Of a DNA stretch of 64,000 nucleotides, positions 2,863-37,854 are shown one piece after another. A program made the translations under genes and the position numbers. How positions within the stretch are numbered: position 1 is the first letter of the stretch; each line of letters opens with the position of its first letter. Below the pieces are notes generated by a model. The model saw nothing but the letters and a program-made list of their open reading frames with translations. It was not told the origin of the DNA and searched no databases. Source of the stretch: Opitutus sp. ER46 (GTDB lineage Bacteria > Verrucomicrobiota > Verrucomicrobiia > Opitutales > Opitutaceae); contig NZ_QAYX01000024.1 in assembly GCF_003054705.1 (NCBI RefSeq), positions 434,001 through 498,000 on the forward strand, read 5' to 3'.

Positions 2863-5103
2863 ATGTCGCCTTTCGGGACGGTCTCAGCCGCCATGCGCGG
2901 GTCGATGCGCACGCCGCGGTGTGCTTTCGGTGCGTGGCTCCTGGCCAGCTTTCTTCTCGGTACCCTGTCCATCCGCGCGGCCGAGGGCCCCGCGTCCGCG
3001 CCGGCTCCCAGCTCCAGCGCGAGCTGCCTCGAGTGCCACAGCGACGAGACGCTTTCGTTCAAGCGCGGCGGCAAGAAGATCTCCCTGTTCGTGGATCAGA
3101 AGCAGGCGGCCAAATCGGTGCACGGATCGCTCGAGTGCGTCGATTGCCACGAGAAGTTCGACGGCGATGCGATCCCGCATCGTACGCCGATCGCGCCGGT
3201 CGACTGCACCTCCTGCCACGACGACCTCGGCAAAAAGCACGCGTTTCATCCGCGACTCGCCGCGAAGGACATACCCGCGGGCGAAGATACCTCCTGCGTT
3301 GCCTGCCACGGCAGCCACGGCATCGCCGCGGCGAAGGCCTCGCCGTTTCTCACGAGCGGCGCCGCCCAGCGCGACGCCTGCGGCAAGTGCCACACCGAGG
3401 CGCGCGACCACTTCGTCGCCTCCGCTCATGGGCGCGCCCTTGCCGCTCATGAAAAGAGCGCTCCCGATTGCCTGACCTGCCATCGCGCGCCCGTCGTTGC
3501 GGCCCGGGACGCCAAGCCGACGCTCGAACAGAAACTCGCCCAGACCCGCCAGTGCGAATCCTGCCACGTCGACAAACCCGACGTCGCCAGCCACGCGATC
3601 CGCGGCACCAAGTTTGTCAGCCTGTTCGAATCGAGCGTCCACGGCGCCGCCCTGCAGAAGGGTGACGCCAAGGCGGCCAACTGCGTGGACTGCCACGGCG
3701 CGCACGAAATGAACCGCGCGATGGCCGCCGACGCGCGCATCAACAAGCTCCGCGTCGCCGAGACCTGCGGCCAGTGCCATGAGAAGACCGCGCACGAATT
3801 CAAGGACAGCGTCCACGCCGCCGCGCTGAACAAGGGCAATCTCGACTCGGCCACGTGCACCGATTGCCACGGCGAGCACGATATCCTCGGCCGCAAGGAC
3901 CCCAACTCGCCGGTCCACGCCGCCAATGTCGCCCAGCAGGTCTGTGCCAACTGCCACGCCTCCCTCAAGCTTACCAAGAAGTACGGCATCGCCTCACACA
4001 CCTTCCAGACCTTCGCCGACAGCTACCACGGGCTTGCGGTGCGCGGCGGCTCGGTCGAGGTCGTGAACTGCGCCAGTTGCCACAGTTCGCACGCGATTCG
4101 TTCCCAGGACGATCCCGCCTCCTCCACCAACAAGGCCAATCTGGTGCAGACCTGCGGCCAGTGTCACCCCGGGGCCAATACCCGCTTCGCCGTCGGCAAG
4201 GTCCACGTCAGCCCCGAGGCGGCCAAGGGCAGTGATGGCAACGACCCGATTCTCTACATTGTCTCCACGCTCTACATCATCCTGATCGTGGTCGTGGTCG
4301 GTGGCATGTTCGTCCACAACCTGCTCGACTTCATCAAGAAGATCCGCCGCAAGCTCGCGATCCAGAAGGGCCTCATCGAGGAGGAGCACGTGGCCCATCG
4401 CCTGTACCTGCGCATGACGGCGCACGAGCGCGTCCAGCACGCGATCCTGGTCCTCAGTTTCGTCACCCTGGTGATCACCGGCTTCATGCTCCGCTACCCG
4501 GATGCGTGGTGGGTCGTCGCGATCCGCAACCTGAGCACCGAGGCGTTCGAACTGCGCACCTGGTCGCACCGCATCGCCGGCGTGGTCATGATCCTCGCGG
4601 GCATCTGGCACATCGGCTACCTGTTCTTCACCAAGCCGGGGCGCTCGCTCCTGCGCGACCTCCTGCCGAAGTGGCGCGACTGCACCGATCCCATCGGCGT
4701 GTTGAAGTACAACCTGGGGCTCTCCCCGACGAAGCCCGCCTTCGGCCGCTTCTCCTACATCGAGAAGGCCGAGTACTGGGCCCTCGTCTGGGGCACGATC
4801 CTGATGGGCATCACGGGCGCCATCCTCTGGTTCGAGAACACCTCGATGGGCCTCTTCACGAAGCTCGGCTTCGACATCTCGCGCACGGTCCACTTCTACG
4901 AGGCCATCCTCGCGACGCTCGCAATCATCGTGTGGCACTTCTACTTCGTCATCTTCAACCCTGACATCTACCCGATGAACCTCTCCTGGCTCACCGGCCG
5001 CATGTCGGAGAAGGAAATGCTCGAGGAACACCCGCTCGAGCTCGAGCGGCTGAAGCAGGCCGAAGCGCAGGACGAAAAACCGGAGACGAAGGACAAGCCC
5101 TGA
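2863..5103 (+). CDS. 13-haem cytochrome c fused to a membrane cytochrome b domain (CbcL-like layout)
   Basis: 746 residues. A signal segment is followed by a periplasmic part with 13 CxxCH motifs (CLECH through the last CGQCH, about residues 50-435). A transmembrane helix comes next (ILYIVSTLYIILIVVVVGG), then a four-helix cytochrome b561-like domain with histidines in the helices (for example WSHRIAG, WHIGYLFF, VHFYEAI, WHFYFV), ending in a charged tail. This layout parallels Geobacter CbcL, an inner-membrane multihaem/b-type quinol oxidase used at low redox potential; that role is inferred. It lies downstream of the cytochrome-barrel pair on the same strand. ATG codons at 2893 and 2905 would give more typical signal peptides than the ATG at 2863, so the exact start is uncertain. 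Confidence 0.8.
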   Translation: MSPFGTVSAAMRGSMRTPRCAFGAWLLASFLLGTLSIRAAEGPASAPAPSSSASCLECHSDETLSFKRGGKKISLFVDQKQAAKSVHGSLECVDCHEKFDGDAIPHRTPIAPVDCTSCHDDLGKKHAFHPRLAAKDIPAGEDTSCVACHGSHGIAAAKASPFLTSGAAQRDACGKCHTEARDHFVASAHGRALAAHEKSAPDCLTCHRAPVVAARDAKPTLEQKLAQTRQCESCHVDKPDVASHAIRGTKFVSLFESSVHGAALQKGDAKAANCVDCHGAHEMNRAMAADARINKLRVAETCGQCHEKTAHEFKDSVHAAALNKGNLDSATCTDCHGEHDILGRKDPNSPVHAANVAQQVCANCHASLKLTKKYGIASHTFQTFADSYHGLAVRGGSVEVVNCASCHSSHAIRSQDDPASSTNKANLVQTCGQCHPGANTRFAVGKVHVSPEAAKGSDGNDPILYIVSTLYIILIVVVVGGMFVHNLLDFIKKIRRKLAIQKGLIEEEHVAHRLYLRMTAHERVQHAILVLSFVTLVITGFMLRYPDAWWVVAIRNLSTEAFELRTWSHRIAGVVMILAGIWHIGYLFFTKPGRSLLRDLLPKWRDCTDPIGVLKYNLGLSPTKPAFGRFSYIEKAEYWALVWGTILMGITGAILWFENTSMGLFTKLGFDISRTVHFYEAILATLAIIVWHFYFVIFNPDIYPMNLSWLTGRMSEKEMLEEHPLELERLKQAEAQDEKPETKDKP

Positions 5104-33657: not shown

Positions 33658-33717
33658 AAAAAAGCTGCGTCCGCGCGCGGGGCTTCGCGTCAGCAGAGGT
33701 TGAACCTGCCTTTGCTG

Positions 33718-34518
33718 ATGAAGACCTCGACTGACCTGAGCACCGAAAAGGTGCGCGAATTCGTGCGCGAGCGCTACGGCGCCATCGCGGAACAGAGCGA
33801 TGCCGCCTGCGGCTGCGCTCCAAGCGGCTGCTGCGGCGGCGGCGCGACGGAGAATTACGGCGAGAAACTCGGCTACACCGCCGAGCAACTCGCCGCCGCG
33901 CCTGCCGGCTCCGACCTCGGCCTCGGCTGCGGCAACCCGCTCGCGATCGCGAGCATCCGTCCCGGCGAGGTCGTCGTCGACCTCGGGAGCGGCGCCGGCT
34001 TCGACTGTTTCCTGGCCGCGCGCCAACTCGTCGGCACCGGCCGCGTGATCGGCGTGGACATGACGCCCGCCATGGTCAGCAAGGCCCGCGCAAACGCGGC
34101 GAAGAGCGGCCTCACCAACGTCGAGTTCCGGCTCGGCGAGATCGAGGCGCTGCCCGTCGCGGACGGCGTGGTCGACCTCATCATCTCCAACTGCGTGATC
34201 AACCTGTCGCCCGAGAAGGCGCGCGTGTTCGCCGAGGCGTTTCGCGTGCTCAAGCCCGGCGGCCGGCTCGCGATCGCCGACGTGGTGGCGACCAAACCGC
34301 TGCCGGAGGCGATCCGCACGAAGCTCGGCGCCATCGGCGCCTGCGTGGGCGGCGCGACGCTCGTCGACGAACTGCGGGCGCTGCTGACCGCGGCCGGCTT
34401 TGGCCGGATCGACATCGCGCTGCGCGAGAGCTCGCGCGCGTACATCCGCGAGTGGACCGACGATGCGAGCGCGGGCGACTACGTCGTGAGCGCCTTGATC
34501 ACCGCGTACAAACCCTGA
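33718..34518 (+). CDS. arsM: Arsenite S-adenosylmethionine methyltransferase
   Basis: 266 residues from the ATG at 33718; a TTG at 33700 would add six residues. The SAM-binding motif is VVVDLGSGAGFDCF. The three arsenic-binding cysteines of the family are present in GLGCGNPLAIAS, ISNCVINLS and GACVGGA. A Cys-rich N-terminal segment (DAACGCAPSGCCGG) is also typical. ArsM methylates As(III) to mono-, di- and trimethyl forms. It opens a plus-strand arsenic cluster running to 37854. Confidence 0.93.
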   Translation: MKTSTDLSTEKVREFVRERYGAIAEQSDAACGCAPSGCCGGGATENYGEKLGYTAEQLAAAPAGSDLGLGCGNPLAIASIRPGEVVVDLGSGAGFDCFLAARQLVGTGRVIGVDMTPAMVSKARANAAKSGLTNVEFRLGEIEALPVADGVVDLIISNCVINLSPEKARVFAEAFRVLKPGGRLAIADVVATKPLPEAIRTKLGAIGACVGGATLVDELRALLTAAGFGRIDIALRESSRAYIREWTDDASAGDYVVSALITAYKP

Positions 34519-34573: not shown

Positions 34574-35623
34574 ATGTCCAATCCTGTCCCTGCCATGAAA
34601 CCGGCGCCTGCGCTCTCGATTCGTCCCGCCCGGAAGGCTGACACCCGCGCGATCACTGCGCTGCTGCAGATTTCCGGACTGGGGCACGACGACCTGGCGG
34701 CGCACCTGCGTCACTTCCTCGTGGCGCAGGATGGCGAGGACGTGGTGGGCGTCATCGGCGCGGAAGTGCACGCCGGGGCGGCGCTGTTGCGGTCGCTCGC
34801 GGTTGCGCCGGCGCACCGCGGCACGGGCCTCGGTCGGGCGCTGGTACGGGCGGCCGACGAGGCGGGCGCCCGCTGGGGCGTGACGCAGTGGTGGCTGCTG
34901 ACCACCTCGGCAGAGGCGTTTTTTGCGCGCGACGGGTTTCGAGTGGCCGAGCGCGGGGAGGCGCCGCCGGAGATCCAGCGGACGGGCCAGTTTACCGGCG
35001 GCGTGTGCCGCTCGGCCGTGTGCCTGACCCGCGCGCGCCGGGCGACGCCGGAGTTCGATGCGGCGCTGGCCGAGTTCACGACGAAGCTTCGCGCATTCAT
35101 CCGGCGCCGGGTGCGCGATGATGCGACGGCGGACGACCTGACGCAGGAGACGCTGCTCAAGGTCTATCGCTCGCGCGCCTCACTGCGCGACGGCCAGCGG
35201 CTCGAGGCGTGGGTGTACCGGATCGCGCGCACGACGCTGATCGATCATTTCCGCCGGCAGCGGCCGAGCGACGAACTGCCGGAGAGCCTGGCGTCGGAAC
35301 CGGCCGACGAGGTGGCGGCGATCCGCGGCGTGATCGTGCACGCGACGCGAATCTACCTCGAGGAGTTGCCCGACGCCTACCGCGAGCCGGTGCGCCTGGC
35401 CGAGTTCGAGGGCCTGCCGCTGGCGAAGATCGCGCTACGGCTCGGGCTGTCGCTGACGGCGGTGAAGTCGCGCGTGCAGCGCGGTCGGGCGATGCTGAAG
35501 AAGAAGCTGCAGGACTGCTGCCGTTTCGAATTCGACCGCGGCGGCAAACTCATCGGCTACGAGCGGCGGCGTGCGCCGGGCCCGGTCACGGAGGCCGCCG
35601 CGCGGCGCGGCTGCGTGTGCTGA
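34574..35623 (+). CDS. ArsN2-type acetyltransferase fused to a SigZ-like ECF sigma factor
   Basis: 349 residues in one uninterrupted frame. Residues 14-152 match ArsN2, a GNAT protein of arsenic operons: [21 protein letters not shown] with the acetyl-CoA loop at 82-87, [17 protein letters not shown], and CRSAVCL. Residues about 155-330 are an ECF sigma factor of SigZ type: [90 protein letters not shown]. After region 4 come CC (315-316) and a CVC tail (347, 349). GTG codons at 35003 and 35018 could start a separate sigma product. It stands where an arsR repressor is usually found and may control the cluster; that is inferred. Confidence 0.85.
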
Positions 35624-35649: not shown

Positions 35650-36147
35650 ATGACTGAATCCACTCCCACCCCGTTTCCCGTGACGTCGAAGAAACCGCTG
35701 GTGCTCGTGCTGTGCACGGGCAACTCGTGCCGCAGCCACCTGGCGGAAGGATTCCTGCGCGCGGCCGCGGGCGACCTGTTTGAGGTGGCCAGCGCCGGAT
35801 CGAAGCCCGCGGGCTACGTGCATCCGCTGGCGGTGCGCGTGATGGCCGAGGCCGGGATCGATATCCGCGGCCACCGCTCCAAGCACCTCAGCGAGTTCAC
35901 GCAGGCGGAGGTCGAGACGGTGATCACGGTGTGCGGTCACGCGGATCAGGCGTGCCCGATCTTTCCCGGGCAGGTAAACCGGCATCACTGGCCATTCGAC
36001 GATCCGGCGCCTGCGACCGGCACGGAGGCGGAACAGCTGGCGGTGTTCCGGCGCGTGCGCGACGAGATCAAGCGGACGTTCCAGGCGTATGCGGACGGAC
36101 GTCGCGACCAGGCGCGCGTGCGGCGCGGCGAGGAGGCGACCCGATGA
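35650..36147 (+). CDS. arsC: Thioredoxin-coupled arsenate reductase
   Basis: 165 residues, low-molecular-weight phosphatase fold. The P-loop is [14 protein letters not shown], with the nucleophile Cys and Arg of CX5R. The two relay cysteines are in [15 protein letters not shown], seven residues apart as Cys82 and Cys89 of S. aureus ArsC. It reduces As(V) to As(III) using thioredoxin. A 15-residue Thr/Pro-rich lead precedes the fold. The stop overlaps the acr3 start by four bases (ATGA), so reduction and efflux are translationally coupled. Confidence 0.93.
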
Positions 36148-37235
36148 ACGCGGAGAAGCATCCCCTGCTGGGCCGGCTGTCGTTCATCGACCGGTATCTC
36201 ACGCTCTGGATTTTCCTGGCGATGGTGGTCGGCGTGCTGGCGGGCCGGTACGTGCCGGCGCTGCCGCGACTGCTCACCTCGTGGAGCATTGGGACCACCT
36301 CGGTGCCGATCGCGATCGGGCTGATCCTGATGATGTACCCGCCGCTGGCGAAGGTGCGCTACGAGGAGCTCGGCGACGTGTTCCGCGACCGGAAGGTCCT
36401 CGCACTTTCCCTCGTGCAGAACTGGCTCGTGGGGCCGGTGCTGATGTTTGTTTTGGCGACGCTGTTCCTGCGGGATTATCCCGAGTACTTCGCCGGGCTG
36501 GTGCTCATCGGCCTGGCGCGCTGCATCGCGATGGTGATCGTGTGGAACGACCTGGCGGGCGGCAGCCGCGAATACTGCGCGGGGCTCGTGGCGTTCAACG
36601 CGCTGTTCCAGGTGTTCATGTTCGCCCCGATGGCGTGGCTCTTCCTGAAGGTGCTGCCCGGCTGGGTCGGCGTGAGCACGGGCGAGCTGGATCTCTCGAG
36701 CGTCACGATCGGCGCGGTGGCGAAGAGCGTGATGATTTACCTGGGCATCCCCTTTCTCGGCGGGCTGGTGTCGCGGCTCGGGCTGCGGCGCGGGGCGCGG
36801 GTGGAGTGGTACGACCGGGTGTTCCTGCCGTTCATCAGCCCGGTCACGCTGATCGCGTTGCTCTTCACCATCGTCGTGATGTTCAGCCTCAAGGGAGACA
36901 CGGTGCTCTCAATCCCGCTCGACGTGCTGCGGGTGGCGCTGCCGCTCGTGGTGTACTTCGCGGTGATGTTCGTCGCGACCTTCTGGGCGAGTGTGTCGGC
37001 GGGGGCCGACTACGCGCGGGCGGCCACGCTCGCGTTCACCGCCTCGGGCAACAACTTCGAGCTGGCGATCGCCGTCGCGGTGGGCGTGTTCGGCATCGCG
37101 TCCGGTGCGGCGTTTGCCGCGGTGATCGGGCCGCTGGTGGAAGTGCCGGCGCTGATCGCGCTGGTATCGGTCGCACTGCGCTGGAAGCGCAGCGTCGACG
37201 CGCGCCAGGCGGGAGCAACGGCGGCGCGGCCTTAG
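36144..37235 (+). CDS. acr3: Arsenite efflux permease, ACR3 family
   Basis: 363 residues with about ten transmembrane helices. The essential Cys of the fourth helix is in [16 protein letters not shown], and the acidic residue of the ninth in [22 protein letters not shown]3 exports As(III) (and sometimes antimonite) using the proton-motive force. It overlaps arsC by four bases. The end is followed after 100 bp by an arsN1-like acetyltransferase. Confidence 0.94.
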
Positions 37236-37335: not shown

Positions 37336-37854
37336 ATGGACCTGAGGATTGAACCCATGACGGAGAAGGACTGGCCGGCGGTGGCGGCCATCTACGCCGA
37401 AGGCATCGCCACCGGGGATTCGACGTTTGCGACCGAGCCGCCGGCGACGTTTGCGGCGTTCATGGCGGGACGCCTGCAGGCGGGGGCGCTGGTGGCGCGG
37501 GGCGCCAACGGGGCGGTGCTGGGCTGGACCACGCTGTCTCCGTATTCGGCGCGCGCGGTGTACGCGGGCGTGGCCGACGTGGCGATCTACGTGGCGGCGG
37601 TGGCGCGCGGGCTGGGAGTCGGGTCGGCGTTGCTCGCACGGCTGGTGGCGGTCGCGGAGGCGGCGGGTTTCTGGACGCTGCAGGCGGGGGTGTTTCCGGA
37701 GAACCGGGGCAGCCTCGCCCTACACCAACGGCAGGGATTTCGGGTGGTCGGCGTGCGCGAACGCATCGGGCGGATGGCCCACGGGCACCGGGCCGGGCAA
37801 TGGCGCGACACCGTGCTGCTGGAACGCCGGAGCCGGGTGACGGGAGTAAGTTGA
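37336..37854 (+). CDS. GNAT acetyltransferase, ArsN1/Pat-like (arsinothricin or phosphinothricin type)
   Basis: 172 residues. The start (IEPMTEKDWPAVAAIYAEGIATGDSTFATEPP) and the acetyl-CoA region (VADVAIYVAAVARGLGVGSALLARLV, then FPENRGSLALHQRQGFRVVGVRERIGR) match the phosphinothricin-acetyltransferase group that includes ArsN1. ArsN1 acetylates the amino group of arsinothricin, an organoarsenical antibiotic. Sequence alone cannot separate ArsN1 from Pat, but the position directly after acr3 favours ArsN1. Confidence 0.78.
   Translation: MDLRIEPMTEKDWPAVAAIYAEGIATGDSTFATEPPATFAAFMAGRLQAGALVARGANGAVLGWTTLSPYSARAVYAGVADVAIYVAAVARGLGVGSALLARLVAVAEAAGFWTLQAGVFPENRGSLALHQRQGFRVVGVRERIGRMAHGHRAGQWRDTVLLERRSRVTGVS

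Follow-up and report, generated by a model that had tools for sequence, protein, structure and literature searches.

The window, by which we denote the whole 64-kb stretch of DNA analysed in this study, contains an arsenic operon in which a single gene fuses an ArsN2-type GNAT acetyltransferase to a SigZ-type ECF sigma factor. Sigma factors are the RNA polymerase subunits that choose which genes are read, and SigZ is a sigma factor family with little study behind it. ArsR repressors form the usual account of bacterial arsenic resistance; judged from sequence comparison, SigZ probably switches on arsenic defence and thereby does the job that is usually ArsR's. The account that we favour, and hold to be the likelier one on balance, describes a two-domain protein whose SigZ half would activate its own operon, would be set by an arsenical through its C-terminal cysteines, and would carry the ArsN2 half as cargo. 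If true, one protein both modifies an arsenical and turns on the resistance operon. The fusion frame, the operon, the promoter and the conservation of the cysteines are directly observed and are described in turn.

The fusion gene and its operon

The arsN2-sigZ gene (34574..35623, + strand) starts at an ATG and runs as a single open frame through 349 codons without interruption. Its first part is an ArsN2 GNAT domain (approximately residues 1-154; 34574..35035, +), residues 24-153 of which score 127.5 bits with the NCBIfam model NF040501, closely above the cut-off of 125. The second part is a SigZ ECF sigma domain with a C-terminal extension (approximately residues 155-349; 35036..35623, +); here, residues 167-333 reach 182.7 bits with TIGR02959 (cut-off 168.65; positions 3-169 of the 170 of the profile), and a second SigZ model, NF007215, gives 175.6 bits, below its cut-off of 212. 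Pfam places GNAT at residues 46-123, sigma region 2 at 171-230 and region 4 at 262-308. By score, the protein is a member of both families, and the claim of an earlier sequence-only reading that one frame joins an ArsN2 GNAT domain to SigZ is borne out.

Residues 82-87 read RGTGLG, which we take to be the acetyl-CoA loop. Structure models were built from aligned relatives that cover one half of the fusion each, never both. The ArsN2 half is modelled confidently (pLDDT >90 across most ten-residue blocks) and finds its best solved-structure match in an N-acetylglutamate synthase; the sigma half, built with 51 rows, exceeds a pLDDT of 90 over most of regions 2 and 4. We infer that the ArsN2 half has acetyltransferase activity. 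Its likeness to N-acetylglutamate synthase is in agreement with what a passage of PMC6465285 states on ArsN2.

Upstream of the fusion lies arsM (33718..34518, +), encoding an As(III) methyltransferase (NF008823, 335.1 bits, cut-off 263); its frame extends to a TTG at 33700, and the ATG at 33718 was taken as the start. Downstream follow arsC for a thioredoxin-type arsenate reductase (35650..36147, +; TIGR02691, 140.5 bits, under the cut-off of 174.3) and acr3 for an arsenite efflux transporter (36144..37235, +; TIGR00832, 432.1 bits, cut-off 282.8). An ArsN1-like acetyltransferase gene (37336..37854, +; NF040503 (ArsN1a), 129.4 bits, under the cut-off of 170) may lie outside the operon. That no arsR is present had been claimed from the letters alone, and for the 64-kb window the claim holds: a local ArsR HMM matched none of its ORFs. 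Four HTH_metalloreg matches occur in the source genome, every one on another contig. With no ArsR gene nearby, the locus differs from an ArsR-controlled ars operon, although an unlinked ArsR may be encoded elsewhere in the genome. No anti-sigma factor was found among the four window neighbours checked.

SigZ loci and their promoter

For comparison, 59 SigZ loci were collected, 51 of them from a search of 252 genomes of the family, in which SigZ exceeds 150 bits in at least 50 genomes, and eight from a draw of 387 genomes of the phylum. The best 13 candidates per genome were scored in the family search and the best eight in the phylum draw, so that all SigZ counts are to be read as "at least". 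Family matches below 150 bits (19 of the 70 places among the matches listed) were left out. Of 13 genomes from the rest of the phylum, five were likewise left out, with scores at or under approximately 100 bits.

At 54 of the 59 loci, arsM, arsI, arsH, arsN2, arsC, or acr3, labelled by similarity to seed proteins, is found on the same strand no more than 1.2 kb away. By NCBIfam, ArsI adjoins SigZ in L145, L147, L151, and L165 (141-167 bits, cut-off 116), and ArsH does so in L171 and L174 (375 and 370 bits, cut-off 292). The loci without such a neighbour are L143, L144, L150, L175, and L176; the last two contain an FAD oxidoreductase that is weakly ArsO-like (28 and 33 of 425 bits). In L150, directly upstream of 7283, our own reading finds what appear to be the last arsN2 codons before sigZ, with no arsM nearby. 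Over the 252 genomes, arsM above its cut-off (50 genomes) and SigZ above 150 bits (50) co-occur in 40, where 9.9 are expected; as the genomes are related to one another, a probability calculated for this overlap comes out too small. An arsN2 gene is absent within 1.2 kb at 35 of the 59 loci. An ArsR gene is also present in the fetched stretch of 17, and the notion that SigZ loci lack ArsR is thus ruled out.

Outside the family and phylum genomes, four plasmid regions were examined, namely of Priestia, Ideonella, Hymenobacter, and Rhodococcus. The Ideonella plasmid carries a SigZ-like gene (L208:6028-6576; 161.2 of 168.65 bits) that overlaps acr3 and sits within an annotated ars cluster comprising arsI, arsC, and arsA.

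Immediately upstream of arsM, the window contains an exact copy of the ECF-type promoter TGCGTCC-N15-CGTC (33666..33691, +), 26 nt 5' of the arsM ATG, which we propose as the SigZ promoter. Extended to TGCGTCC-N15-CGTCAG, the pattern has one exact match in the window (33666-33693) and three with up to two mismatches, against 4.5 expected by chance. TGCGTC(C/T)-N15-CGTC stands exactly upstream of arsM in 41 of 45 SigZ-type loci, the same loci in which the motif had first been spotted by eye. The spacer is 15 in all 41 matches, and letter shuffles of the 45 arsM regions yield 0.01 of 45 with the motif. The four regions without an exact copy (L119, L126, L155, and L160) are off by one or two letters. 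Among the 45 are L112, whose SigZ-ArsN2 fusion is broken, and L119, whose sigZ is split; arsM matches below 180 bits were left out.

None of the seven SigZ-free arsM loci (genomes with arsM and no SigZ above 150 bits, minus L112 and five arsM-like regions) contains the motif, and in all seven arsM is preceded on its own strand by an ArsR gene. Those five arsM-like regions fit neither group, and one of them (L259) has the motif. Among the four without it is L256, in which arsM adjoins a gene that resembles sigZ (106.9 bits with a local HMM). Over 1.13 Mb of loci, the motif with one extra letter was matched 50 times, and its reversed control not once.

Less affected by the choice by eye are the zero of seven in the SigZ-free loci, the loci L147, L149, and L165, and the SigZ of the Rhodococcus plasmid. 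The arsI-sigZ loci L147 and L149 have CGCGTCY-N15-CGTC upstream, and the scan of loci found the motif upstream in L165, an arsI-sigZ locus as well. Before the Rhodococcus gene there is a TGCGTCC-N15-CGTC, found with a loose pattern and no control, and before the Hymenobacter gene a similar but altered site; no SigZ-type site was seen before the SigZ of the Priestia or Ideonella plasmids. A relaxed form of the promoter lies upstream in 29 of the 35 SigZ loci without arsN2, which makes the fusion dispensable for the pairing of promoter and SigZ.

Because the promoter is found at 41 of 45 SigZ-type loci and at none of the seven SigZ-free ones, we infer that SigZ drives its own arsM operon; that this particular SigZ uses the promoter in front of arsM is, on these comparisons, very likely. 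Direct drive of the cluster had been suggested by the sequence-only reading, and the conserved ECF-type promoter, which SigZ-type loci share and the seven SigZ-free ones lack, supports it. Its conservation also renders the claim directly testable by a reporter.

Throughout genome G000, a looser motif is not enriched (eight matches, ten for the reversed control), and the attempt to define a G000 regulon by means of the motif was dropped. One SigZ-type site, possibly a chance match, was observed at G000:C20:330026-330052 (L260), 11 nt 5' of an ATG; the ORF downstream of it resembles a histidine kinase in our own reading. On the Rhodococcus plasmid (L210), TGCGTCC-N15-CGTC occurs at 4878 (+), 4875 (-), and 5973 (-), around the SigZ-like gene, and no ars gene is annotated in the 10.6 kb examined.

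Origin of the junction and other fusions

In a DNA alignment of the window with the junctions of 13 relatives, the fusion junction maps to 35033..35053 (+; approximate bounds). In all 13 relatives, arsN2 and sigZ overlap, by ATGA in 12 cases and by GTGA in one, and sigZ lies in a different frame from arsN2. In the window, the overlapping stop/start is gone and the junction is 11 nt shorter than in the relative L002; between 35000 and 35075, the fusion frame is open, ATGA is absent, and a single stop falls in one of the two remaining frames. Separate ORFs with arsN2 directly 5' of sigZ occur in 21 other fetched loci, a set that shares some places with the 13 aligned junctions. Sigma matches in a search of 57 genomes are at most 72% identical, and separate ArsN2 matches adjoin several of them. 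Since both halves match genes that are adjacent and overlapping in related genomes, the fusion is more than chance. As its simplest origin, a small deletion would have taken out the overlapping stop/start of arsN2 and sigZ in an ancestor. In a tree of 56 SigZ, the branch of the window's sigma half has an unremarkable length of 0.27 (median 0.23).

We weighed two readings under which the junction would mean little. It might be a sequencing or assembly error, the genes being separate in the cell, which we regard as very improbable indeed. The ArsN2-SigZ order is found in one genome only, that of the window, and as assembled sequence only; yet one wrong base could not have produced a junction that has 11 nt fewer than L002, and a missing stop or frame error of that size does not account for it. 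The source genome, in 25 contigs, has a reported completeness of 100% and contamination of 0.02%, and fusions of the opposite order exist, one of them in a single-contig genome. The sequence-only reading had named a missed stop between the domains as a possible flaw; the assembled sequence has no in-frame stop there. Unlikely, too, is a second reading in which the halves act apart, with translation of SigZ starting also or only at an in-frame GTG (residue 144 or 149), or with the protein being cut, so that the fusion would have no regulatory meaning. Both GTG codons do exist (a third in-frame start, at residue 180, lies inside region 2), and the relatives make two proteins. However, no Shine-Dalgarno-like stretch was seen by eye in the 18 nt 5' of either GTG, and the ancestral overlapping start has been lost.

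Other fusions of the same two families, of the kind that the sequence-only reading had proposed to search for, were found, and all have the order SigZ-ArsN2. Two are intact, L109 (357 aa, from the single-contig genome) and L110; their ArsN2 scores are 137.9 and 142.2 bits, above the cut-off of 125, and their SigZ scores of 165.8 and 161.9 bits lie just under the cut-off of 168.65. The third, L112, is broken by frame changes. An ArsN2-sigma fusion is hence not unique to the window. When the tree of 56 SigZ is rooted at its midpoint, L109 and L110 form a pair (95/86), and the window sits apart from them in a clade of 31 rows (92/94); this placement and the reversed order speak for an origin of the ArsN2/SigZ fusion on at least two occasions. 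Among 1685 matching plasmid records, none covers 80% or more of the fusion in one place. Two further arrangements were observed in passing: L119:6913-7989, where sigZ is divided between two ORFs, and L113:2805-3608 (+), a single-frame ArsN2-cupin fusion from a genome that is not among the SigZ matches listed.

Cysteines and the proposed arsenical signal

All six cysteines to which the sequence-only reading drew attention (residues 145, 150, 315, 316, 347, and 349) are present in the translation. The motif C315-C316 (35516..35521, +) closes the helix of region 4 and precedes a predicted beta hairpin; the model has a helix at 294-315 and strands at 316-320 and 326-331, and is confident into the hairpin past the pair but weak at the final residues. 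Every one of the 56 aligned SigZ has a Cys-Cys after region 4; this alignment leaves out L119 (split sigZ), L174, and L176 (both of low score) from the 59. In the terminal C347-x-C349 (35612..35620, +), the column of C347 holds Cys in 52 of the 56 (four are without) and that of C349 in 28. The Priestia plasmid SigZ has the CC away from ars neighbours and without terminal Cys, so the CC alone is not arsenic-specific.

ArsN2 rows were aligned separately from SigZ rows, as mixed alignments misplaced them (14-26% identity). In the ArsN2 alignment (30 rows), column 144 holds a nearly invariant Cys, which the window replaces by Val (codon 35003-35005) with a Cys adjoining (C145); neither C145 nor C150 falls at a nearly invariant column. 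The earlier suggestion that the GNAT domain or Cys 145/150 might sense the arsenical is thus not supported. With Val in place of the nearly invariant Cys, the ArsN2 half is rather likely a cargo enzyme and not a sensor. By analogy with CorE of Myxococcus xanthus, the cysteines of the C-terminal extension are the likeliest arsenical sensor, and we put the chances evenly that the SigZ of the window in fact senses an arsenical through them.

In the mechanism that we propose, a basal level of the fusion would meet As(III) or methylarsenite, and the cysteines of the SigZ extension (C315/C316 with C347/C349) would bind the trivalent arsenical in a CorE-like manner. The arsenical-bound sigma half would become competent for core polymerase and would direct RNA polymerase to TGCGTCC-N15-CGTC at 33666-33691, 5' of arsM, whereupon ArsM, the fusion itself, ArsC, and Acr3 would all rise in a positive loop that takes ArsR's usual place. 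The ArsN2 half would be an enzyme carried at a fixed 1:1 ratio, and might have a regulatory role. ArsM, ArsI, and ArsH share the chemistry of trivalent methylated arsenicals, which makes methylarsenite a candidate signal. For arsM and arsI, an action on trivalent arsenicals is described in a passage of PMC5258700.

Two rivals concern the signal. ArsN2 itself may be the sensor, binding an arsenical (e.g., an amino-acid-like one) or acetyl-CoA and gating the sigma half. The juxtaposition of arsN2 and sigZ in 21 other loci, together with fusion in both orders, suggests a functional tie, and the GNAT fold is modelled well, its top structural matches including N-acetylglutamate synthases. This reading is improbable all the same: at 35 of 59 SigZ loci no arsN2 lies within 1.2 kb, and 29 of these keep the relaxed promoter; moreover, the nearly invariant Cys is replaced and C145/C150 are not nearly invariant. 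Somewhat unlikely, rather than improbable, is that SigZ drives the arsM operon without sensing arsenic, either constitutively or under control of its own transcription, of ArsR, or of an unlinked anti-sigma factor, its cysteines binding zinc or serving in redox; otherwise, this is compatible with the account that we favour. The presence of ArsR at 17 of 59 SigZ loci and the CC of the Priestia SigZ away from ars genes would fit it. Set against it are the usual partners arsM, arsI, and arsH, which handle trivalent arsenicals, and the lack of an anti-sigma factor among the four window neighbours checked.

The favoured account, an arsenical-set SigZ with ArsN2 as cargo, can be compared with known systems. 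Against SigZ proper (TIGR02959; Bacillus subtilis SigZ), the fusion exceeds the curated cut-off and has the CC after region 4 as in the Priestia SigZ; it differs from the family in being joined to ArsN2 within an arsenic operon, and from the Priestia protein in its terminal Cys pair. With ArsN2 (NF040501; named in a passage of PMC6465285) it shares a score above the cut-off, the ars operon, and the likeness to N-acetylglutamate synthase, and differs in the attached sigma factor and in Val144. In CorE and CorE2 of M. xanthus (ECF44, now ECF238), a C-terminal Cys extension replaces the anti-sigma factor, according to a passage of PMC8999054, and the CorE2 extension likewise starts with Cys-Cys (PMC9023288, in part). 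Factors of this kind depend for activity on their Cys-rich C-terminal domain and are activated by the bound metal ion. The window protein, however, has no CXC between sigma2 and sigma4, residues 151-314 being free of Cys; the section of PMC8999054 concerned gives this CXC as retained only in the former ECF44 and absent in approximately 85% of ECF238. Its cysteine spacing (CC, 30 residues, CxC) deviates from the spacings given in a passage of PMC9023288, and its operon is one for arsenic, while CorE belongs to copper, cadmium, or zinc. Due to the missing linker CXC and the different spacing, we did not class the fusion as CorE-like. OrbS of Burkholderia cenocepacia also has a C-terminal Cys cluster on an ECF sigma factor and is described as an on-board metal sensor in part of PMC9023288; it differs from the fusion in being inhibited by Fe(II), in its Cys pattern, and in its siderophore genes. 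ArsRM of Brevundimonas sp. M20, an ArsR-ArsM fusion, likewise unites an ars regulator with an arsenical-modifying enzyme, though its regulator is of the ArsR family and its enzyme ArsM; as stated in a passage of PMC10190100, it is such a fusion, and thus regulator-enzyme fusions do occur in ars biology.

Among the matches listed from open-licence papers, there is no arsenic-sensing ECF factor, no GNAT-sigma fusion, and no ArsN2-SigZ fusion, and no open-licence paper was found that has SigZ and arsM together. The passage of a 2023 review (PMC10141391) that deals with B. subtilis SigZ gives it only as an ECF factor. Should SigZ activate the operons of arsM, arsI, and arsH, this ECF family, which is listed without a role in B. 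subtilis, would gain one, and both research and the design of arsenic biosensors could draw on an activator that responds to arsenicals and has a promoter of its own. More generally, and with a confidence that falls a little short of even, SigZ proteins may be arsenic-sensing one-component activators that act at TGCGTCC-N15-CGTC in front of arsM, arsI, and arsH operons in Verrucomicrobiota, together with ArsR or replacing it, with ArsN2 welded on in either order in more than one lineage. The fusion is a natural object for asking whether ArsN2 takes part in signalling.

Small cysteine-containing ORFs were observed beside several SigZ-type sites. In L129, L131, and L132, two tandem TGCGTCY-N15-CGTC sites upstream of arsM lie on either side of a short ORF (60 to 66 codons, four Cys), whose 3' end is overlapped by the second site. 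In L143, a 46-codon ORF with 14 Cys lies between 8041 and 7813 (-), between a SigZ-type promoter and sigZ; it looks like a metal-binding peptide.
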